DNA from: a virus | Strand: one strand, 5' to 3' | IMG/VR virus record: IMGVR_UViG_3300024529_000007 | Location: 1 to 32,646 of that record | DNA: 32,646 nucleotides | Shown here: positions 2,151 through 27,306 of the stretch, piece after piece | Layout of the letters: the number at the start of each line of letters is the position of its first letter | Numbering within the stretch: position 1 is the stretch's first letter | Translations under genes and position numbers: made by a program | Notes under the pieces: model-generated | Told to the model about the DNA's origin: nothing | What the model saw: only the letters and a program-made list of their open reading frames with translations | Database searches by the model: none

Positions 2151-5100
2151 ATGCCAGCTATAAATCCCAATAATTACAATATAGACTTTTTCCAAACGTA
2201 TAGTTTCGGTGATTTAACAGATAGTGATTATGTTACGTATCTTTTAGGTCAGAACCTACTTAATTTACCAGACGAATTAGTTGATGGTGCTGCTGGAAAT
2301 TTTTTAAGTGTATGGGCCAACGAAAGAGGGTTAGAAAAAACCATAAATTACTCAAAAATAGAAAATCCTGGTGATGTTGACGAATGGTTTGCTGAAGGAA
2401 ATGTATCTGTAAATCTAAACGACATAAGAAATGAAGTTATATTTAAAGATAATGAATACGGACCTTCTGTATACCAAGCATATAATTGTCCACAACTAGA
2501 AGACCCAGAAGAAACAGGGTTCATACAATACCCAACATCAACTGGTGGTAATGTTGTTACTGACTTATTGGGTGAAACATTGGACGCTGTAGGTTTAGGT
2601 GGTTTAAACGCGTTTTTAATAGATTTCCCTTCAGAATTAAATGAAGTGGCAAACGAAAGACGTTTAACGGAATTAAAAAACAGAGTTAAACAAAATCTAA
2701 TTAACGAAACTGTTGGTAGAATTAATTTGGACCCTTTAGGGTTATTAGCTGGACAACCTTTATTCGGAAAAGATTATAAAATCACAAAACCAGCTGAAGG
2801 GATACCAATACCAGGGTTAGGGGTTTTAACTGATTTAGCTGATTTTAACTTATCAGCTTTAAGGAAAGACCCACTACCAGATGGAGCTTTTGATTGGGGT
2901 CAAAAACCCATGGATAGCCCATTTTCGGAACGTCAAATAGATATATCACAAGCACTACTAGACTATACGGGGAAGGGTACACAAAACTTATTATACGAAG
3001 CTTTAAAAATAAATAAATATGGGCCAATAATTGAAGGTCAAGACGACCCATTAGGTAACGAACCAAAAAAAGCTAAAGACGCAAACCAACCAACACAAAA
3101 GTTAGGTTATCTTGACCACACATACGAAAAACCCGTTGGTTCAAAAGAAAAATCAGTCACAGAAAATAAAACAAAATTAGCCGGAATAGTTGATAAAATA
3201 AAAAATATTGGTAAAAAGGAAAGTGAAGATTTAGCACCAACAGAAGAAAACAACCCAACAGTCAAAGATAGTCCTATCATGGTTTATAAAAACAAAGGGT
3301 TTGATTTCAAATACGCGTATGAAATGGATTTCGTGGCATTAAAGGGTAGTTGGGATTCCCAACATTTAGCTAGTTGGTCTAATCAATATTATCCATCACA
3401 GATAACCACAGACAACCCATTTGAAGACGTTGGTGGTACGTTTGATAATATTGGTCCAGAAACAGAAGCTAGATGGAACAGTGATTTATTTTGGAAAGAC
3501 GGTAGAGACGAAGCAAATCTACCTAAAAGGGGGTTATTAAGGTATACACAAAAATTAATTAATAAATCTACTGGTGAAAAAGGTAGAGGAAGTGCGGCAC
3601 AATTTGTGGGATTACCAAACTCAGACCAAAACTATAATATGGATAGTACCGATAGAAGACACATTACAATGTCACAAGGTAATTTGGTTAAAGAATCTAA
3701 AGAAAATAAATATTATTGTCGTTCATGGTCAGTTAGAAACACTTATAATAGGTATAATGACCTAATAAGACACGATGCGTTATGGAGAGAAACACAACCT
3801 GGTACAATTAGAGACGGAAAATCAGACGCAAATGTAAAACTAGGTAAATACTCAACACTAAGAAGTCCCGGTATACCCAAAATAGCTTGGGAAAAGGATG
3901 GGGAAACAGAAAGTGCGATAATGAAAGCGGCACAATTAGGTAAACTACTTGTTGATAAAAAACATGTAATACCATATATGTTCTCACTTGAAAACTTAGC
4001 TTGGAAAGATTCTCCACATCATAGAAAACTACCCACATGTGAAAAAGGGCCTTTTGGTGGTAGAATAATGTGGTTTCCACCATATAACATAAATTTTACA
4101 GATAACACATCTGTTAATTGGGATACAACTAGTTTTATTGGTAGAGCAGAACCAATATACACCTACAATAATACCGAAAGAACAGGGACATTGTCCTTTT
4201 CAATTGTGGTTGACCACCCATCAGTATTAAATAAATTAAAAGACAAAGCTTTTAAAACCACAACAACCAACGAACTTGGCGAAGTTGAGGAGGTTAGCAC
4301 AACAACTAACTTAGAAACATTCTTCGCCGGCTGTGACGCTGAAACAACAAAAAATATTGTACAGGAAGCTTTTAAAGAAATTATACCACAAGAAGATGAG
4401 CTAGATAAATTAACAGAACCAGAACTATTAGAAGAAAGTGACACAGAAAGACAAAACCAAGGAGTGCCGACAGTAACCGATGGTTTAAGTTTTTTCTTTA
4501 AAAACGCTAGGTCGGCATTTATAAAAGAAATCGATGATTGTGGTTCAGGTACCCAAGGATACTGTAGTAGTTACGGATATATAATAGACGAAAGTTCATG
4601 TCCAGATGGGATTATAGGTAGATGTTTTGATTATAACTACGAAAAAGACCCACAGGCATGGTACGATAACCCAAAATTATATAAAGTAGGTTGGTATTCA
4701 TGTGATGGTGGTGAAGCTTGTAAAGAAGAGATTGATAAATATGGGGGGTATGATGGTAGTCCGCCTGTTAGTCAATGGTTCGACACAATAGAGGATGAAA
4801 ATACATTGGACACAGAGGGGTATCCTTTAGAGGAAATACCAGAAAGTTACCAATACCAAAGATGGGATGGACCATTACCCTGTAACGGTAAAGAAAGTCC
4901 ACCACTAGGTACTGAGAATAGGTTTGGACCAAAGTTAAACGCAGTGCCAACCGGTTCTGGTAATGAAACGAATACCCAACTTTGGGGTTCACAAAGTGAT
5001 GGTCAAGCATATGAAAATATAACTTTTTGTAACGAATGTCTACCTTCGACAGGTACGACACAACTTGCGAGTTGTCCGGCAGGGTACACATTAAGTGGGT

Positions 5101-7817
5101 CTTCCATATGTTACAGTGCATCAACAACATGTCCAACGGGTTTTACATTAACAATGGGTGGTCTGTGTGTTAGTGGTACAACAACAGCTAGTAGTACAAC
5201 TACCATAGTAACAACAAGCCCCACAACAACACCTGGAGAAATTAAAGAAGCTAACCAACTAGGGTCACTATACGAAAGACAGGGTTTTAATTCTAGATTT
5301 TTTGGGACGGGTAGTGATGAGACTAGTGGCCTCTTGGGTAATTATAAATCATCGTTCCTACCAAAAATGGACATACCAGGTATGGAAAATAAAACATGGA
5401 AGTTTACTGTTGATGTTGGTGACGGTGTGGTTGGAAATGGTATAAGCCAATTAATAGAGTTTTTAACAACAACATGGCAAGGAAAGGGGCAAACAATTTC
5501 GGTAATTGGTAACACGAGTAGTTTCGGTAATGTAGAATATAATCAGAAACTATCAGAAGATAGAGCTAGGAATGTTTTTAATTATATGTATGACCAAATG
5601 GTAAAGTGTGAACAATCAACAGATGAAACACCAAAACTACCCACTAGTGGGGAAAGTGAAGTACCATTATACACAGAAAGTGAATACCAGTTATCCGAAA
5701 ACCAAACAGCCAACCTTAGATGGGGTATATTTGGGGTAGGAAAAAAAGACGCTCTTGGTTTTGTTGGTAATGACGCAAATGTTGACACATCATCAGCATC
5801 GTATAGTGGACAGTTTATACCAACACCAAGTAGAGCACACCCAAATGATTATGAAAACGAGTGTCAAATAATCTCTAGAAGAGTTGACATAGTTCTAACA
5901 CCAAACGAGGAACTACTATCAAAATCTTGGGATACATTTAAAAAAGAAGAAAAAGAAAGAATACAAGGTGTAAACGAAGGTTTACTAAAAGAATTTAAAG
6001 ACAAAAAAGCGGCTGCGATAGCAAAAGCTGAAGCCGACAAACAAGAGGCACTTGAATTGGCTAAAAACTTTATAAATGAATGTGATTATTTTATGCAAAT
6101 AAAAGAAGACGACTCTTTCTTATATGATAGCCTTAAAGATAAACTTAGAAACTTCCACCCAGCTTTCCATTCAATAACACCTGAAGGGTTTAATTCAAGA
6201 ATAACTTTCTTACAACAATGTGGTAGACAAGGGCCATCAACAATAGACCCTAACCAACCACAAAATACAGCATTTGGTAGACCACCAGTATGTATACTGA
6301 GGTTGGGTGATTTTTATCACACTAAAATTATAATTGACACAATTAACTTTACTTTTGACCCATTACAATGGGACCTTAATCCTGAAGGTATTGGTGTACA
6401 ACCAATGTTATGTAACGTTGATTTAAACTTTAAGTTTATTGGAGGTTCTACATTACAAGGACCATTGTCAGCATTACAAAACGCCGTTTCATATAACTTC
6501 TTCGCTAATACAGCATTATATATGCCATTAGAAAAGATATTAACAAGAAGAAAAAGTGCTGGAGAAATACTACTTGAGGGTGATGATGGGTTTAGTGATG
6601 GAACACAAGAAAACGAATACTTCTACGGACCATTTGCTGGACAAGAAGAATTTAATGACGCTATTAAGGTAGAAAAAGATAAATCAGACGAAGTGGTAGT
6701 GGAAGACCCAAATGAGGCAGAGGAATCTGAAGAAGCAGCAAGTCAAGGTGAAGGTGGTAATGATGGTGGGCCACCAGTCACTGGTTCTGGTTCTGGTTGT
6801 ATAGACGAAACATTATTATCAGAAGAAGACAAAAGTGTGGCTTTAGAATATGGTATACAAGATAATGTGTCTAGTAAAGTATGGGCAGATATTAAAGCAA
6901 ACCCAAACAAGTATGATGGATATTACTGTAATGACACAACCGGTGTTAATGCTGGCAAAACCACTTGGGTACGTAAAGTAGATGATATTAACAAAACAGA
7001 AGAAGAGATATTAGAAGAAGCACAAGATGGTGGTGGTAGTGGGGGAGACACTGATGGTACTGAAATTGGGGCACCAAATAAAACAACAGATGAAGGTGGA
7101 CTTTTATTCACGGAAACTAATTCATTAAAATACAATCAAGGTGAAACATATAGTAACGATTATGGTAAAATAACAATAAGTGGAGATTATGTTGACGCGG
7201 AAAACGGTATAGGCACATACCTATCATCACCAACGGACCCAACAGATGGGTTATTACCAAATTACGTATGGGGACGAATAAACCCTGATATTGCTAATGA
7301 CTACGATGTGACCATAACTCAAGATAAAGGATTCGAGTCTTTAGATGGTGGTTCAGGTACTAGGGGTGGAGGTAACAACGCTGTGGTTTGGGATAACCTC
7401 ATCGCCAGGGTTGAAAAGACTGAAAATAGTTGTTGTACTGTTACCGATGCTGACAGACCAGCCGAACAAGTAGGTAGACAAATATTTGCTTTCAATATAC
7501 TACCTTACGCGATTAATATGGAAAGTTTTGAGGAGTGGGCATTTTGGGCTGCTGGTGGTAATGATGGTGATGATTTTTACTCATCTGATTTGATTGAAAC
7601 AATACAAAAAAATATAGATGATAAGGGTGTGGCGAAATGGAAGGTTGGGTTTTATATTCAACTTACTGAAACTACTAATTCTATGGAAACTAGAGTAGCT
7701 AATGGGGCGACCGGTGATGACAAACATAGAAAATACGAGAGTGGTTCTATTAATATTGTAGGTGAGATAAAACAAGAAGGTTTAAACATTATAAAAGCGG
7801 CTGTAGGAGCACAATAA
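2151..7817 (+). CDS. 1888-aa tail/baseplate protein with internal OmpA-like domain
   Basis: This large virion protein probably belongs to the central baseplate or tube-baseplate junction. Around residues 607-694 there is a segment containing GRIMWFPP, FIGRAEPIYTY and TERTGTLSF. A second segment (about 1336-1463) contains FGRPPVCILRLGDFY and WDLNPEGIGVQPM. Both resemble beta-rich tube/baseplate-adaptor domains of contractile systems (inference from pattern). Residues 797-1006 are Cys-rich with two C-P-x-G-[YF]-T-L-x5-C units, followed by a Thr/Ser linker. Residues about 1075-1150 match the OmpA C-terminal fold (GNTSSFG, then YNQKLSEDRARNVFNYM). A short Lys/Glu/Ala-rich helical region (about 1265-1310) and an acidic Gly-rich linker (about 1507-1550) follow. 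The gene sits between the tape measure and the gp53-like gene. No Shine-Dalgarno sequence precedes the ATG, which follows an A-run. Confidence 0.7.
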   Translation: MPAINPNNYNIDFFQTYSFGDLTDSDYVTYLLGQNLLNLPDELVDGAAGNFLSVWANERGLEKTINYSKIENPGDVDEWFAEGNVSVNLNDIRNEVIFKDNEYGPSVYQAYNCPQLEDPEETGFIQYPTSTGGNVVTDLLGETLDAVGLGGLNAFLIDFPSELNEVANERRLTELKNRVKQNLINETVGRINLDPLGLLAGQPLFGKDYKITKPAEGIPIPGLGVLTDLADFNLSALRKDPLPDGAFDWGQKPMDSPFSERQIDISQALLDYTGKGTQNLLYEALKINKYGPIIEGQDDPLGNEPKKAKDANQPTQKLGYLDHTYEKPVGSKEKSVTENKTKLAGIVDKIKNIGKKESEDLAPTEENNPTVKDSPIMVYKNKGFDFKYAYEMDFVALKGSWDSQHLASWSNQYYPSQITTDNPFEDVGGTFDNIGPETEARWNSDLFWKDGRDEANLPKRGLLRYTQKLINKSTGEKGRGSAAQFVGLPNSDQNYNMDSTDRRHITMSQGNLVKESKENKYYCRSWSVRNTYNRYNDLIRHDALWRETQPGTIRDGKSDANVKLGKYSTLRSPGIPKIAWEKDGETESAIMKAAQLGKLLVDKKHVIPYMFSLENLAWKDSPHHRKLPTCEKGPFGGRIMWFPPYNINFTDNTSVNWDTTSFIGRAEPIYTYNNTERTGTLSFSIVVDHPSVLNKLKDKAFKTTTTNELGEVEEVSTTTNLETFFAGCDAETTKNIVQEAFKEIIPQEDELDKLTEPELLEESDTERQNQGVPTVTDGLSFFFKNARSAFIKEIDDCGSGTQGYCSSYGYIIDESSCPDGIIGRCFDYNYEKDPQAWYDNPKLYKVGWYSCDGGEACKEEIDKYGGYDGSPPVSQWFDTIEDENTLDTEGYPLEEIPESYQYQRWDGPLPCNGKESPPLGTENRFGPKLNAVPTGSGNETNTQLWGSQSDGQAYENITFCNECLPSTGTTQLASCPAGYTLSGSSICYSASTTCPTGFTLTMGGLCVSGTTTASSTTTIVTTSPTTTPGEIKEANQLGSLYERQGFNSRFFGTGSDETSGLLGNYKSSFLPKMDIPGMENKTWKFTVDVGDGVVGNGISQLIEFLTTTWQGKGQTISVIGNTSSFGNVEYNQKLSEDRARNVFNYMYDQMVKCEQSTDETPKLPTSGESEVPLYTESEYQLSENQTANLRWGIFGVGKKDALGFVGNDANVDTSSASYSGQFIPTPSRAHPNDYENECQIISRRVDIVLTPNEELLSKSWDTFKKEEKERIQGVNEGLLKEFKDKKAAAIAKAEADKQEALELAKNFINECDYFMQIKEDDSFLYDSLKDKLRNFHPAFHSITPEGFNSRITFLQQCGRQGPSTIDPNQPQNTAFGRPPVCILRLGDFYHTKIIIDTINFTFDPLQWDLNPEGIGVQPMLCNVDLNFKFIGGSTLQGPLSALQNAVSYNFFANTALYMPLEKILTRRKSAGEILLEGDDGFSDGTQENEYFYGPFAGQEEFNDAIKVEKDKSDEVVVEDPNEAEESEEAASQGEGGNDGGPPVTGSGSGCIDETLLSEEDKSVALEYGIQDNVSSKVWADIKANPNKYDGYYCNDTTGVNAGKTTWVRKVDDINKTEEEILEEAQDGGGSGGDTDGTEIGAPNKTTDEGGLLFTETNSLKYNQGETYSNDYGKITISGDYVDAENGIGTYLSSPTDPTDGLLPNYVWGRINPDIANDYDVTITQDKGFESLDGGSGTRGGGNNAVVWDNLIARVEKTENSCCTVTDADRPAEQVGRQIFAFNILPYAINMESFEEWAFWAAGGNDGDDFYSSDLIETIQKNIDDKGVAKWKVGFYIQLTETTNSMETRVANGATGDDKHRKYESGSINIVGEIKQEGLNIIKAAVGAQ

Positions 7818-14100: not shown

Positions 14101-16127
14101 GTACAAATGTTAAGGAAAATACCCCTAGTTACTTTTTTAATATAACAGATAGTGAGGTGGTTGACAAAGCTATGGGAACAAACCACGTCCCATTAGCGGG
14201 ACACTTTAGTTATGTTAATAGAGCAATGCAAGAAATTGGTAACAAATCAGTGTTAGATGTTATAAAACTAGACAAGATACCACAAAACCCAAAAATGAGT
14301 TTCTATAATTTAATATCTGATTTATTAGGTGAAAATAATTTTGATTTTTTCCCACTACCAACATACACAAACTTTACAGCAGACAAATCAAATGAAAACC
14401 TAAAATCAATGTTTAGGCCAGACACAAATTCAATAGTCAAAGCCTCTGGACCAAACTTTATCTGTATGTACGTTGGTGGTACTTCTAGAACATTAGATTT
14501 AAAATCTAAAGGAAGTAAAAACAATTGCCCAGCAGATAATCAAGATATGTCATATAATGATGATGGAATATCATTGACTGAAGGGAAACCAAACTCACTT
14601 CCCCAACCAACCGAAATGCAGAGCCCTGAAGACGATGTCCTTAAATCAACTAGAGATAGAATACTTAAGGATGGTAAAGACTCCCAACTATCACCAGGCA
14701 GAATAGAAGGACAGGGGTTTACGGCTTTTAGGGTGGCATATGGAGTAGAAAATCAAAACATGTTTAAATCTGTTGAACTAGACCAATCAGAATTTTCTGA
14801 AACAAATGAATCGTTATTAGTAATCAATAGGTTAGCTAATGGTGGAAACCCAGGTGATAAAACAAATAAAGGCCAAAACTTACATAACTTATATTTAACA
14901 AGGTCTTACTCATGTACTGTCCAGTCAATGGGTAACATGATGATTCAACCACTACAGTATTTTGAATTAACTAATATACCTATGTTTTATGGGACGTATT
15001 TAATTACAGAGGTTAAGCACAATGTTAAACCACACCATATAGGGACAACGTTTAAAGGGGTTAGACAACCATTAGCGACAGTACCGATAGTGGAAGATAT
15101 AGCTACAGCTATGAGTCTATCACTGAGAGATATCGACCCTATAGCTGGTGGTAATATAATAAATTCAGGTTCAGGAGGTGGTGGTTCCTACGCTACATCA
15201 TCAATAAATGTTTCCAATGTGTCAGCATCTAATGGGTTTTATGTACAACAAAGTGATGGTGATTTATATGTTGTTAGTGATAGGTTAGGTGTTGCTGGGG
15301 CAACATTATTAGAATTTACTAGAGACCTAGAAAAATATTTACAGAATAAATTCCCAGACAGAGAGTATAAATTTTCTAACGATAATGGTGCTGGACCCAA
15401 TATAACAAGGTCTTTACAAGACACATTAGCTGGTGGGCGTGGTAGGATAAAAACATCTAAACATGGGTCTGGATTTGCTATAGACTTGTTATTTGAGGGT
15501 AAATTTAAAAACATCGATAGTGGTGATATTTCTGAACTAGGTAATTATTACAACACCCCAAGTAAGAAAGATGGGGGTACTGATACTAGAACTGGTTATA
15601 AATGGCCTAAGGGTAATTTGGTGGTTGTTAAAGACCATGACTACATGAACGCCATAAAAGAATATCTAGAAACGTCAAAGTGGAAAGATATTATTAAGTG
15701 GGGGGCAACATGGGGTGGTGACTACACTGATTCTGGTAGAGAAAAAATACCTGGGATTGAAAATTCAACACTAAACTTTAACGATGGGGCAACACAAAAC
15801 GATGAATTACATCATTTTGAAATTAAAAGTGGTATAATGGCCAAATATTGGACACAAGAACAAAAAGATTTTATAGAAAGTATTGGGTTAAAAGTACCGA
15901 ACAAACAATCTGAATTAGCACCTATATATAAGTACCCATTTGATAACCCATCAGTCTTAACTGACGACACATTCCAAGATAAGGGTGACGGCGAACCAAG
16001 CTCTAATGTGGTACCAGTACCATCAAATTTTGATGATACACAACCAATAGGTAAAGGAATAGAAGGAAAAAACATAACTAGTGCGGGAAGCGTACAAAAC
16101 GCATTACAATACGCGGGACAAATTTAA
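8175..16127 (+). CDS. 2650-aa baseplate hub protein with C-terminal M15-type zinc peptidase
   Basis: This is the largest gene in the window. The N-terminal region (about residues 105-220) has runs such as VVVDFVDIRGATLFEQG, SPYGMFFHLPYPIFELTLKG and NTETGNFECKAEFIGWSYA, which look like a conserved hub-type beta domain. Residues about 2240-2300 (QPLQYFELTNIPMFYGTYLI, then TTFKGVRQPL) resemble the end of gp27/gpD-type hub domains. A Gly/Ser linker near 2330 leads to a peptidase of the M15 (L-Ala-D-Glu/D-Ala-D-Ala) superfamily. It has S-x-H-x-x-G-x-A-x-D with H2430 and D2437, a WGGDY segment at 2513-2517, and ELHHFE with E2544 as likely catalytic base and H2547 as third zinc ligand. The long middle (about 250-2200) is not recognised. 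The role inferred is a hub with a wall-cutting tip, functionally like T4 gp27/gp5 but with a peptidase instead of a lysozyme. Confidence 0.75.
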   Translation: MAIEPRIIDNGQGVKIIDPNPPHQVVEHEDLYIYASLVAKTKGRSFITEGTNGGTTQDNINISTVDMVISDTATDNGKKRQFLTTAWSDIGGSQIDDAGTRGDVEGFGITNIDIEIKGSYIPRVVVDFVDIRGATLFEQGSCSPYGMFFHLPYPIFELTLKGYYGKPATYFLNLQKFNTKFNTETGNFECKAEFIGWSYAFLADMLMGYVRCANYMKGPWAAKDSLRKKYDEAVTYYLDNGIFDESDYSALHDNVNIRGGKYSEKIQPFCRKIAGTDTVECKTITSLLQDIQQIKTFLGQVKADDNYLEVANLIRTKNEVIKMRQSVTDFARKLEQDFKGYLDGDPRITKAKNPNKSARNIKELYVFNQAPDDKLKGFLATYWIRPIDDGSGGDLAGSGFGEITSNIPTIKEGLVKENFNTGQKTCGGSHVAVASNKTFSDGLTQCEKVSEEPFKYQLLDFLDDIKGFQKGMLKFNDKNGNLQYEDTKNSLNNDFYIDVGYLTSLLDGDLATLSEEIERKRNSVKEAIDDGVTRALGFRPTIRNIFTILSCNVENFVQLLLNVSIKAEEHHKELEEQYNEQYHGGAEEQLMVLNRQGPGDAPKKIYPWPTYYKTNYRSTASYNSNSKTETKEVYPGVNSEFNSWPEVRFVEDFIDACTRLNEADEDLLEDKESRPGYDNYMPINPLESQIYGQIQLKYRELIKSLDTPSSLKDGINKIIAERMFITLDFSYFDPIRYNQFNLGLGFNYPWRKQTKGNSESIDFPTFQQNRIWFPTLYKATKSELAEENPIIALAKIDAHNLMSCITDTDKLQTLNLQIFQNTNSLFDQIEEQLKQETDNKTEPTGDTNKPWFNPDAKYTDLSTNISIPNASGPDILKQNLITNQVWVGGNGKTYTEDYWAYYPREGYIRLLGVGSAGGIGKVGLNQQEVHCDIRKMKPEYLFQLIDGETFEAKLDAGVDMGGYINDTNKKREELQGNLAKAIVHTGLDNKSSGIEMKNYTVEDSNSKLVTFNGVDTDKGLRLFTTLSITPKQAGDFKPFNIEYVGPMLTPSSDDSGKASRITPGWGSIKQTLIPFMQQVYMWQGVDGEHTGEEYNREAGTTQDASYPWLSLPFDPPATGIFKGAELGQDDKGGSEVFKCKSTYSGSNPAAKMGDISDDICSTEEKTRWGWIQVIDTLIQNPLWLDNTLKFREAASDTNAIDTTTANISNRVSNADWGYKRPLTKTDGDTNYYGLKGPKLEEIKQKYGNAVGLEYSSTEIQNRNLAYLFLSACKTTPFITCGSSEANKNTGDGGVEWINPAQFEWIDDPGDGIFNYKGDHYPKALRPFITSQGLVKIPKVWVYGMGAVMWRWKMYMGANKDTSGNIRWRHPAFGETPNGLDPLSQPGHPGIATEDRDETPIRGYLIGPDFFTGRKDRSRTEDGGSGSGGSFPGESYANKLFKDEKGLWTTSITQQERTQVSAFSRGVTRVDGITRATFHAASTTSEYTFSYNGTQDPPQVDGWSDTITFGCMFDYWGVYNLDKLLNRVLPNDWKPKLSNNYVGAGAQKQQSFGAWTSLAKNFMLDKEYGPDFGTEIWVGDNSLGTRLSENFNELDGDSDARREGNPLELQMRSAHEATANSFWPNLWCAPWQHFYTEPVNIGNTAGASQADTDNDNPNDFVEQTLTILPYDIIFRDYVGNFGYLGNQNGNYAAIKLDADPVTITADIPESFTSITKGVIAPTTTALMTSFTIKYDIYGEAYLMSAEGGKYAELMALLPTFVKDSFVKEFEDWCDNEWKDYLPVIDPVNFEEGGKKSSSPNYGGKYGKLSDSYRAKQFKETQPLDKLLGTYHAENFYGSNGDVQETFFAIPTLSKEFTGDNNPKNINKVKELEDILVREFYYAVIPTPRLFGLDVWNGDESEEVNGMSKNAFYANKDLAKQYLKAFKSEWDSSYLDKRGELTLDPTKNDDGSVLNDDDIKLSLYRSFKSITDKWISSSTNVKENTPSYFFNITDSEVVDKAMGTNHVPLAGHFSYVNRAMQEIGNKSVLDVIKLDKIPQNPKMSFYNLISDLLGENNFDFFPLPTYTNFTADKSNENLKSMFRPDTNSIVKASGPNFICMYVGGTSRTLDLKSKGSKNNCPADNQDMSYNDDGISLTEGKPNSLPQPTEMQSPEDDVLKSTRDRILKDGKDSQLSPGRIEGQGFTAFRVAYGVENQNMFKSVELDQSEFSETNESLLVINRLANGGNPGDKTNKGQNLHNLYLTRSYSCTVQSMGNMMIQPLQYFELTNIPMFYGTYLITEVKHNVKPHHIGTTFKGVRQPLATVPIVEDIATAMSLSLRDIDPIAGGNIINSGSGGGGSYATSSINVSNVSASNGFYVQQSDGDLYVVSDRLGVAGATLLEFTRDLEKYLQNKFPDREYKFSNDNGAGPNITRSLQDTLAGGRGRIKTSKHGSGFAIDLLFEGKFKNIDSGDISELGNYYNTPSKKDGGTDTRTGYKWPKGNLVVVKDHDYMNAIKEYLETSKWKDIIKWGATWGGDYTDSGREKIPGIENSTLNFNDGATQNDELHHFEIKSGIMAKYWTQEQKDFIESIGLKVPNKQSELAPIYKYPFDNPSVLTDDTFQDKGDGEPSSNVVPVPSNFDDTQPIGKGIEGKNITSAGSVQNALQYAGQI

Positions 16128-16133
16128 AATATT

Positions 16134-18131
16134 ATGGGACTAACAAAACTAGAAAAAACAATTTTAGACACTATATCCTATTATGAGGGTACGATTGGTA
16201 AATCAGCAAATGGTTATGATATTTTATTTGGTGGTAAGAAAATAATGAATGGGTGGACTGTTGACACAACCGAAATAAGGCACAGATGTATATACCCTAA
16301 AGGTAGTGTTGATAAGGAAAAGATAGAAAAAGAAGGGTTTAGTGTTTGCGAAGACCCAACATGGAAGGACACATTCACCAAAAATGGGGAAACTAAATCA
16401 TCAACAGCAGCCGGAAGATACCAGTATTTAGGGTATAGCTGGGCCTCAGCAACAGAAAAGTTAAATTTAGGTTTTAACGCGCCTATGACAAAAGAAAACC
16501 AAAACAAAGCGGCTCTACGTGGTGTTAAACAAAAAAGAAAGGTAACCGAAACCGAATTAAAAAACGCTTTAACTAGTTTATCTAATTTTAAAATAGTGTT
16601 AGAAAAACTAAAAAATGAGTGGACATCAATGAAAGGGGCTTTATCAGGTAGTTATCACAAAACAGTCGAACAAGGGTGGGAATTCTACAAAGGGGCTTAT
16701 GAAAAATATAATAGTGGCGGTGGGACGAACACTAATACGGTAGTAAATGGTAGTAATACAGTATACGTAGATTCTAATGGACAAACAGTTTCTAAATTTG
16801 GTACCACCACCATATCTAGTAATGGTGATAACAGTAAGTTTTATCTAAATATCCCATCGGGAAATCCAACAAAAGTTATTTATTTTTGGGCAGGACTAGA
16901 GTCCGTTATATCTAGAGAAAAGCAATGGGAACAAATACCACAAGCAGTTAAAAATAAGTGTTATATTGTTATGGCGGCGGGCACAACAGCATCAAACCAA
17001 AATTCATTATCAACACTAAAAGGTATATTTAAGAAATATAATAACAGCATAAATGTTACCCCCCTAAAACAATATTTAATGGGTTATTCTGCTGGTGGTG
17101 TGTCTGTGTTTAATAATTACGATAGTTCTTTTGAGTTTGTAGGGTTAATGGACCCATCACTGTCAACTGAAGCAAACACAGAAAATAGGACATATAGTGG
17201 TAATGTGGCTATGATTTGGGGGTCTGACGCTATGATAGGCATTAGTAATTATGGCACTAGATACCCAAAATTACAAGATAAAATAAAAGATGATAAAGGG
17301 TATTCAATAAAGGAACCTAAATTAAATCATGGGATAGCAATACAAAAATGGTTTGGACTTTGGGGTGATGTAATAACAACAGGTCAAGCATCAACAACTA
17401 ACCAATCATCATCAAATTGTGCAACAGACCCAAACGCCAACTATTTAAGGAGTGTTATTGCTAGTTTAGGTTATAAAGAAAAATTTTACATACCCGAATA
17501 TGTGTATAACTCTGGTAATAAATCAAAGAAACAAGTGCCAACATTAAACCCTAATACGGGTTGTTATGCTCACAAGTATGACGGAAAGTGGTATGAAGGT
17601 GAATTATCCAATGGTGGTGATATGAGTGAAGAAATTTCTAAAGTTGCGGCTAAAGTGTTTACAATAATAAAATCTAAATATCCATCATATCAATTAACAT
17701 TAACTGCTGGTAATGATAAATTTCACTATACAAGAAGTTACAATAGTAGACATAAAGCCGGTAATGGTGTAGACATGGTTATTGATGGGTCAAGTAATAG
17801 TGGTGGTTCTAATTGTGCTACAGATGAGAGTTGGGGTAGGGCTAGTAAAAACAAAAAAGCGTGGAACGTATCTAAAAATGGTACTAAAGTACAAAATGTT
17901 GTTGAGATAATTAGGGGACTTTCTGCTAGTGGTAGTGGTGGTGATATATATGACAAACTTAGGTACATTGATGAGTATTGTAATAAAAGTGCGCCCAATG
18001 TTGGTGACCACATACATTTTTCTTGGGGTACTGGTAGTGAAGCTAAAAAAACAGTTAAAAAGGCTAAATCTGAAGCGGATAAAAACCCTTCACAATTAGA
18101 AACATTTAATGTGGGTGATTTATTCACTTAG
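16134..18131 (+). CDS. Multidomain lytic enzyme: lambda-R-like lysozyme + alpha/beta hydrolase + M15-like peptidase
   Basis: Residues 1-195 follow the lambda endolysin (GH104 transglycosylase) pattern. They have SYYEGT with catalytic-type E18, NGYDILFGGK, a TAAGRYQYL segment, W-containing helices, and a closing G-x-Y-x-K/H region. Residues about 225-415 form a likely alpha/beta hydrolase: nucleophile elbow GYSAGG with S319, an acid candidate D365 (or D340), and H399 in LNHGIA. Residues about 430-650 carry an M15-like zinc site: SRHKAGNGVD (H540, D547) and GDHIHF (D625, H628). Linkers are Gly/Asn/Thr/Ser-rich, and the hexapeptide SNCATD occurs at 427-432 and 559-564. No signal peptide or obvious membrane segment is visible. 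The gene starts 6 bases after the hub gene, which favours a virion-associated lysin over a stand-alone endolysin, though both remain possible. The esterase substrate is unknown. Confidence 0.75.
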   Translation: MGLTKLEKTILDTISYYEGTIGKSANGYDILFGGKKIMNGWTVDTTEIRHRCIYPKGSVDKEKIEKEGFSVCEDPTWKDTFTKNGETKSSTAAGRYQYLGYSWASATEKLNLGFNAPMTKENQNKAALRGVKQKRKVTETELKNALTSLSNFKIVLEKLKNEWTSMKGALSGSYHKTVEQGWEFYKGAYEKYNSGGGTNTNTVVNGSNTVYVDSNGQTVSKFGTTTISSNGDNSKFYLNIPSGNPTKVIYFWAGLESVISREKQWEQIPQAVKNKCYIVMAAGTTASNQNSLSTLKGIFKKYNNSINVTPLKQYLMGYSAGGVSVFNNYDSSFEFVGLMDPSLSTEANTENRTYSGNVAMIWGSDAMIGISNYGTRYPKLQDKIKDDKGYSIKEPKLNHGIAIQKWFGLWGDVITTGQASTTNQSSSNCATDPNANYLRSVIASLGYKEKFYIPEYVYNSGNKSKKQVPTLNPNTGCYAHKYDGKWYEGELSNGGDMSEEISKVAAKVFTIIKSKYPSYQLTLTAGNDKFHYTRSYNSRHKAGNGVDMVIDGSSNSGGSNCATDESWGRASKNKKAWNVSKNGTKVQNVVEIIRGLSASGSGGDIYDKLRYIDEYCNKSAPNVGDHIHFSWGTGSEAKKTVKKAKSEADKNPSQLETFNVGDLFT

Positions 18132-25407: not shown

Positions 25408-27306
25408 ATGGAATTATCTAATAAAATTCTATCAGACATAACTGTATATATGAAGTACGCTAAGTATATGCCAGAATTGGAGAGAAGAGAAACTTGGGAA
25501 GAATTGGTAACACGTAATAAAAATATGCACATCAAAAGATACCCAAAGCTTAAAGACGAAATAAATAAAGTTTATCAATTGGTGTATAATAAAAAAATAT
25601 TACCATCTATGAGGTCCATGCAATTTGGGGGTAAACCAGTGGAGATATCGCCAAACAGAGTTTATAATTGTGCGTACATGCCTATTGATAGTGTAGAAGC
25701 TTTTAGTGAATGTATGTTCCTTTTATTAGGTGGGACTGGTGTTGGTTATTCAGTACAAAAACATCATGTAGCTTCACTACCACCAATCAACAAACCATAC
25801 ACAAAAAGGAAAAAAAGATTTTTAATTGGTGACTCAATAGAAGGTTGGGCTGACGCAATTAAAGTATTGATGAAATCTTATCTTAATGGTCGAAGTTCAC
25901 GTATCGAATTTGATTTTTCGGACATCAGACCAAAAGGGGCTATGTTAGTTACGTCTGGTGGTAAAGCGCCAGGACCACAACCACTTAAAGAGTGTTTACT
26001 TAAAATAGAAGGTATATTAAGTCAAAAAGAAGATGGTGACAACCTATCAACAATCGAAACACACGATATTGTTTGTTATATAGCTGACGCTGTGTTAGCT
26101 GGTGGTATACGTAGAGCAGCTTTAATATCATTATTTTCAGCTGACGATGATGAAATGATTTCTTGTAAGGCAGGAAATTGGTGGGAACTTAACCCACAAA
26201 GAGGTAGAGCTAATAATTCAGCGGTACTAATGAGACACAAAGTAACAAAAGAGTTCTTTTTAGATGTTTGGAAACGTGTTGAATTATCGGGGGCTGGAGA
26301 ACCAGGTATTTACTTTTCAAATGATAAAGATTGGGGTACAAATCCATGTTGTGAAATAGCACTAAGACCATTTCAGTTCTGTAACTTATGTGAGGTAAAT
26401 GCTTCAGATATTGAAAGTCAGGAAGATTTAAATGAAAGAGTCAAAGGGGCAGCGTTTATTGGTACACTACAAGCAGGTTACACAGATTTTCATTACCTAA
26501 GAGAAGAGTGGAGAGAAACCACAGAAAAAGATGCTTTAATAGGCGTATCAATGACAGGTATTGGTAGTGGTACAGTTTTAGGTTATGATATGACAAAATC
26601 GGCTAGTTTGGTTAAAAAAGAAAACACTAGGGTAGCTAAATTAATAGGAATTAACCCAGCAGCTAGATGTACTACGGTTAAACCGGCTGGAACAACTTCA
26701 TTAACATTAGGTACTTCATCAGGTATTCACGCTTGGCATAATGATTACTACATTAGAAGAATCAGAGTTGGTAAAAACGAATCAATATATGGATATTTAT
26801 CTGAATTCCATCCAGAATTAATTCAAGATGAATACTACAGACCACATGACACGGCTGTTATTGAAATACCACAAAAATCACCAGAGGGTGCTATTATGAG
26901 AACAGAGTCACCATTTGAATTATTAGAAAGGGTGAAAAAAGTGTCACAAGAATGGATAAGTCCAGGTCATAGAAAAGGTTCCAACACACATAATGTCTCA
27001 GCAACAATTTCATTAAAAGAAAATGATTGGGATTTAGCTGGTGAGTGGATGTGGGAGAATCGTAAATTTTATAATGGTTTATCGGTATTACCTTATGATG
27101 GTGGAACATATGTACAGGCCCCATTTGAAGATATTACAGAAGAAAAATATTTTGAAATGATGAAGTCATTATTAGACGTTGATTTAAGTAAAATCATAGA
27201 AACAGAAGATAATACAGACTTAAGTGGTGAAATTGCTTGTGGTGGTGGGCAATGTGAGATTGACGTAGACTTATCTACTATCGCAGAAAAAGAAGAAATA
27301 AACTAA
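25408..27306 (+). CDS. nrdJ: Adenosylcobalamin-dependent (class II) ribonucleotide reductase
   Basis: This 632-residue enzyme reduces ribonucleotides to deoxyribonucleotides for phage DNA synthesis. The active-site motif is N312-P-C314-C-E316, with C314 as the thiyl-radical Cys and E316 its acid. C88 (YNCAYMP) and C325 (FCNL, 11 residues after C314) fit the reducible pair. A phosphate-binding PAGTTSLTLGTSSGIH segment follows. The C-terminal pair C611-x4-C616 matches the relay cysteines of the monomeric Lactobacillus-type RTPR, as does GGTGVGYSVQ near residue 110. No separate iron/radical subunit gene or glycyl-radical motif is nearby, which supports class II. The motif reads NPCCE instead of the more usual NPCGE. 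At about 630 residues it is shorter than the roughly 740-residue reference enzyme. It is the last gene before a terminator. Confidence 0.9.
   Translation: MELSNKILSDITVYMKYAKYMPELERRETWEELVTRNKNMHIKRYPKLKDEINKVYQLVYNKKILPSMRSMQFGGKPVEISPNRVYNCAYMPIDSVEAFSECMFLLLGGTGVGYSVQKHHVASLPPINKPYTKRKKRFLIGDSIEGWADAIKVLMKSYLNGRSSRIEFDFSDIRPKGAMLVTSGGKAPGPQPLKECLLKIEGILSQKEDGDNLSTIETHDIVCYIADAVLAGGIRRAALISLFSADDDEMISCKAGNWWELNPQRGRANNSAVLMRHKVTKEFFLDVWKRVELSGAGEPGIYFSNDKDWGTNPCCEIALRPFQFCNLCEVNASDIESQEDLNERVKGAAFIGTLQAGYTDFHYLREEWRETTEKDALIGVSMTGIGSGTVLGYDMTKSASLVKKENTRVAKLIGINPAARCTTVKPAGTTSLTLGTSSGIHAWHNDYYIRRIRVGKNESIYGYLSEFHPELIQDEYYRPHDTAVIEIPQKSPEGAIMRTESPFELLERVKKVSQEWISPGHRKGSNTHNVSATISLKENDWDLAGEWMWENRKFYNGLSVLPYDGGTYVQAPFEDITEEKYFEMMKSLLDVDLSKIIETEDNTDLSGEIACGGGQCEIDVDLSTIAEKEEIN

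Follow-up and report, generated by a model that had tools for sequence, protein, structure and literature searches.

Record IMGVR_UViG_3300024529_000007 was analysed over its whole length of 32,646 nucleotides (32.6 kb, hereafter the window); it is classed as linear, which often denotes a fragment. The window contains gp25-like, UvsX-like and DnaB-like genes together with an ORF of 607 aa related to annotated baseplate wedge proteins, and it is therefore read as part of a T4-like myovirus. Because the best annotated matches of the 607-aa protein among phage records belong to Microcystis and Flavobacterium phages (25–28% identity) and the GC content is 34%, the host is likely Gram-negative and possibly a member of the Bacteroidota. 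An adenosylcobalamin-dependent ribonucleoside-triphosphate reductase-like gene of 632 aa lies at 25408–27306 (TIGR02505, E 2e-78, below the cut-off of that model).

The gene studied here is an ORF of 665 aa with an ATG start and no internal stop (Table 1). An earlier note on this DNA had read it as a lysozyme, an alpha/beta hydrolase and an M15-like peptidase in one chain. All residues cited for that reading lie at the positions given for them (YYEGT with E18, AGRYQYL, GYSAGG with S319, D365, H399, H540, D547, D625 and H628). Two of the three domains, the lysozyme and the alpha/beta hydrolase, are now identified by homology, whereas the peptidase is recognized at the level of a motif and invariant residues. 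The three-domain family comprises only about four distinct records, namely the window, L003 (with the near-identical L013), L005 and L002, the copy in L002 running off the end of its contig. Searches for more relatives by motif pattern or by neighbouring gene returned only the same records plus L074 and L075, whose lysin is different.

Table 1. Positions of the features discussed (window coordinates unless a locus is named)
Feature	Position	Strand	Basis or remark
Three-domain lysin ORF, 665 aa	16134..18131	+	ORF reading
Domain 1, residues about 1–195, lambda-R-like (lytic transglycosylase type) lysozyme	16134..16718	+	PHROG 90; PDB profile match
E18, putative catalytic acid of the lysozyme domain	16185..16187	+	aligned with Glu of lambda R EGT motif
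Domain 2, residues about 207–418, predicted alpha/beta-hydrolase fold	16752..17387	+	homology to LucasX esterase domain; Foldseek; NCBIfam
S319, candidate nucleophile (GYSAGG)	17088..17090	+	kept in L003 and L005; lost in L002
D340, acid after predicted strand beta6, alternative to D365	17151..17153	+	invariant in all four sequences
D365, acid of the earlier note	17226..17228	+	not conserved (S in L005, V in L002)
H399, candidate catalytic histidine	17328..17330	+	kept in L003 and L005; lost in L002
Domain 3, residues about 430–650, LAS/M15-like zinc peptidase (motif level)	17421..18083	+	zinc motif, invariant residues
Second, separate M15-like domain, C-terminal about 300 aa of the 2650-aa ORF (SKHGSGFAID...ELHHFEI)	15222..16127	+	PF13539, E 0.076
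LUCX_176, annotated hypothetical protein, Xanthomonas phage LucasX	L070 2162–4651		virion-structural N-terminus, C-terminal alpha/beta-hydrolase (esterase) domain

The lysozyme and peptidase domains

The N-terminal domain belongs to the lambda R-like lysozymes (PHROG 90/GH104 type), as its signature had suggested. PHROG 90 (endolysin) matches residues 7–209 with an E value of 5.7e-18, and a profile built from six related domains retrieves lambda lysozyme from the PDB (3d3d/1am7, E 2e-4). The alignment places E18 on the catalytic Glu of the lambda R EGT motif, and YYEGT or YTEGT is also present in L003, L020, L049 and L057. Lambda R is a lytic transglycosylase, and the same activity is therefore expected of domain 1, which most likely cleaves the glycan strand. 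Besides the EGT motif and the profile match, the AGRYQ block is shared with lambda R. In contrast to lambda R, the window lysozyme is fused to two further domains and encoded next to a baseplate-type gene.

Domain 3 carries the motif SxHxxGxGxD...DxxHF. The pair SxHxxG..D and [DE]xxHF was absent from all 20,000 shuffles, and in a set of 442 ORFs from related loci only lysin-type ORFs contained it. The M15/LAS zinc-site pattern HxxxxxxD...[DE]xxH is present, and all four sequences share H540, D547, H626 and H628, while D625 varies, being Ala in L003. Scans of the C-terminal domain as a single sequence against Pfam, PHROG and NCBIfam gave nothing above cut-off, its profile found no relevant match among PDB sequences, and comparison with M15 profiles and structures was not significant. 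Homology to the M15-like domain encoded immediately upstream, or to the Pfam M15_4 domains of sister phages, was considered and rejected, as the scores did not exceed those of shuffles although the zinc motif aligns. For these reasons domain 3 is called LAS/M15-like and not a member of M15. The H540/D547/D625/H628 site proposed earlier thus stands as a zinc motif with one variable position, and not as a family assignment. The likeness to LAS/M15 metallopeptidases of the D,D-carboxypeptidase and L-Ala-D-Glu endopeptidase types resides in the SxHxxG..D and DxxHF motifs; domain 3 differs in finding no profile support and in the Ala that takes the place of the acid in L003. Judged by these motifs, domain 3 is most likely a zinc peptidase of this kind that cuts the stem peptide.

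The middle domain

Single-sequence scans of the middle domain against Pfam, PHROG and NCBIfam were also negative at cut-off, the NCBIfam PHA depolymerase model reaching residues 267–323 at a sub-threshold E of 0.019. The corresponding profile had no relevant match among PDB sequences and no relative in a search of genome contigs. A tblastn search of 50,697 phage records returned a single weak match (E 7e-3), to the C-terminal part of LUCX_176. This protein combines a virion-structural N-terminus (PHROG 1037) with a C-terminal domain above the Pfam Abhydrolase_1 cut-off, and its relatives, which come from Arthrobacter and Gordonia phages, are annotated as esterases, minor tail proteins and tail fibre proteins. 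When the window family was compared with phage tail esterases in hhalign, the score was 45.6, whereas the highest value among 200 controls with shuffled columns was 22.2, and with L002 included the middle domain still scored 41.4 against a shuffle maximum of 20.9. The GYSAGG elbow of the window was aligned with the tail-esterase elbow.

AlphaFold models were built on four sequences and were poor both for the whole chain and for the middle domain. Although of low confidence (mean pLDDT only 47), the full-length model gave a Foldseek list against the PDB that consisted almost entirely of esterases, cutinases and other alpha/beta hydrolases (best E 2.8e-4); with the middle-domain model, whose pLDDT was 38, Foldseek found nothing below E 0.001. 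Taken together, the tail-esterase homology above shuffles and the Foldseek list make the predicted alpha/beta-hydrolase fold a sound assignment. The domain falls within this superfamily by homology, by fold match and by a nucleophile elbow after beta5. A motif such as GYSAGG arose in 11 of 20,000 shuffles of the domain, and the elbow recognized in the earlier note sits in a domain homologous to real alpha/beta hydrolases.

It had further been suggested that S319, D365 and H399 form a triad attacking an ester-linked substituent. The window copy does retain these residues, and S319 and H399 are kept in three of the four members (window, L003 and L005) at 48–59% identity. In L002, however, GYSAGG is replaced by GVGNRA and the histidine is gone, while the domain and its reading frame are kept. 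With nucleophile and histidine both missing from L002 and D365 varying among the relatives, the triad as named is at best incomplete and does not extend to the whole family. Attack on an ester-linked substituent fits the fold and three members of the family, but not L002. It is reasonable to think that the middle domain of the window is probably catalytic, with D340 or D365 as the candidate acid.

An alternative is that the middle domain is a binding or spacer module derived from an alpha/beta hydrolase, with catalysis incidental or absent and the lysozyme and peptidase forming the working enzyme. We consider this unlikely. The L002 copy and the shifting acid position are what one would expect of such a module, as is the fact that the middle domain is the least conserved part between the window and L002 (40% identity, compared to 78% for the peptidase), but the loss in L002 may be secondary, and although the window, L003 and L005 are about 50% identical, all three have preserved S319 and H399 together with the flanking motifs MGYSAGG and DPSLS. 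A small family in which the triad is retained in some members and lost in another offers a ready-made comparison for deciding whether the esterase-like domains found in lysins act as enzymes or as binders.

The gene slot and its lysin domains

The lysin gene starts 6 bases after a giant baseplate-type ORF of 2650 aa, the middle part of which is conserved across sister phages. The M15-like domain at the C-terminus of this ORF has homologues in L027, L063 and L071, the L071 ORF matching PF13539 with an E value of 5.2e-5. Putative zinc peptidases are therefore present in two neighbouring genes of the window. In L003, the upstream M15-like domain appears by inspection to be replaced by an amidase-like sequence (LHWSGG...GLHYHYEI).

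The slot was compared in loci fetched by UvsX or by neighbour-gene synteny. Beside the baseplate-type ORF, L020, L049 and L057 encode a small lysozyme-only protein, and other sister phages have Amidase_2, Phage_lysozyme2 (tail lysozyme), M15_4, M23 or CHAP-like domains. The lysin domains of this slot are often fused to a hub-like region of the baseplate-type ORF (L004, L027, L036, L047 and L063). Given its position next to the giant ORF and the variety of lysin domains that fill the slot in sister phages, the lysin gene is most likely part of an exchangeable cassette of virion lysins. The fusions to the hub-like ORF are the main reason for reading the protein as a virion lysin, a location that we infer from the gene slot. 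That it acts instead as an endolysin in the lysis phase is rather doubtful: the endolysin annotation of PHROG 90 and the lysozyme-only proteins in the same slot would agree with such a role, but the 6-base spacing from the baseplate-type ORF and the frequent hub fusions argue against it.

Exchange within the cassette is apparent at the level of domains. The identity profile of the window lysin switches near residue 420, in the linker, and the closest relative changes with the region compared: the peptidase domain is 78% identical to that of L002 and 38% to that of L003, whereas the neighbouring 188-aa gene shows 61% and 83%, respectively. This discordance points to domain-level recombination in the lysin cassette.

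Tandem duplicates of the hub-like region, encoded by separate ORFs, occur in L025 (2660–6288), L053 (2374–5863) and L075 (85–3041); in L053 and L075 every copy has a lysin-type domain at its end (Amidase_2 or Phage_lysozyme2). A C-terminal tail at L053 6461–6910 (FSAGC...VEP...GSSSS...KHW) looked by eye like a degenerate or second-half alpha/beta hydrolase, a resemblance that profile comparison did not support. At L075 3660–4229, in the same slot, a tail lysozyme is followed by an SGNH/GDSL-like C-terminal domain (GSSSVG...GTND...KAHN; Pfam E 0.052, below cut-off), which would be a weak but independent hint that an esterase is useful there.

Proposed function and precedents

We propose, with a confidence that is evenly balanced, that the product of the gene is a multi-enzyme lysin of a T4-like myovirus, probably associated with the virion through the baseplate, and that it would join a transglycosylase, an ester-removing domain and a zinc peptidase. 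Its role would be to open the wall locally during DNA entry, with domain 1 cleaving the glycan strand, domain 3 cleaving the stem peptide and domain 2 removing an ester-linked substituent from the envelope. The middle domain is placed at the wall because it lies between two domains predicted to be peptidoglycan-directed, in a chain without a receptor-binding module. This same arrangement makes it improbable that domain 2 is an active esterase against capsule, O-antigen or lipid and not peptidoglycan, even if other phages have homologous domains in tail fibre proteins or virion structural proteins, acetyl-esterase (deacetylating) tailspikes are known for Vi phages and virion lipases have been predicted for Cellulophaga phages (PMC5380687).

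Within the proposed multi-enzyme lysin, the preferred target of domain 2 would be the O-acetyl group at C-6 of MurNAc, a substituent that would block the lytic transglycosylase if left in place. A similar logic may be seen in Neisseria with LtgA and Ape1, the latter an SGNH enzyme. The hydroxyl at MurNAc C-6 has to be free for lytic transglycosylases to act, and its O-acetylation blocks them (PMC1199599); LtgA, the transglycosylase, and Ape1, the O-acetylesterase, show mutual stimulation (PMC7083599). From these observations, peptidoglycan O-acetate would be the most economical substrate. LtgA and Ape1 are, however, separate cellular proteins, and the window would unite the corresponding functions in one chain. 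The more specific idea, that the lysin carries its own peptidoglycan de-O-acetylase beside a transglycosylase and a stem-peptide peptidase in order to open O-acetylated Gram-negative walls, has in our view a small chance of being right. If it were, the sub-threshold SGNH-like domain in the same slot of L075 would represent an independent solution to the same problem. Moreover, if phages fuse an esterase to a transglycosylase against host O-acetylation, peptidoglycan O-acetylation would become a phage-defence trait with a defined counter.

Among the 50,697 phage records, none gave a match that covers lambda-R lysozyme, alpha/beta hydrolase and LAS-like peptidase in this exact combination. The earlier statement that no standard family joins these domains for a Gram-negative host is therefore upheld for the exact set, but the principle has precedents in Tal of phi11/80alpha and in LucasX. 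The three-domain combination is rare, and each of its parts has precedents. In Tal of the staphylococcal phages phi11/80alpha, a hub or endopeptidase part is paired with a lipase/esterase part (PMC5380687; PMC7048315). It resembles the window protein as a tail-tip lysin with a lipase/esterase-like domain, insofar as the window protein is, as its slot suggests, located in the virion. It differs in having an SGNH/GDSL domain and a Gram-positive host, whereas the window protein has an alpha/beta hydrolase and a lambda-R-type glycosidase. Homologous virion alpha/beta-hydrolase (esterase) domains are found in LUCX_176, in gp33 of Arthrobacter phage Seahorse and in gp31 of Gordonia phage Mellie. LucasX is a Gram-negative phage with alpha/beta-hydrolase domains in virion proteins; unlike the window lysin, LUCX_176 matched neither a lysozyme nor a peptidase in the same protein.

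Upstream in the same gene cluster of the window, an ORF of 1888 aa (2151–7817) contains a peptidoglycan-binding OmpA domain above the Pfam cut-off (residues 1102–1153, nt about 5454–5609). An OmpA-family domain is unusual in a phage structural-type protein.
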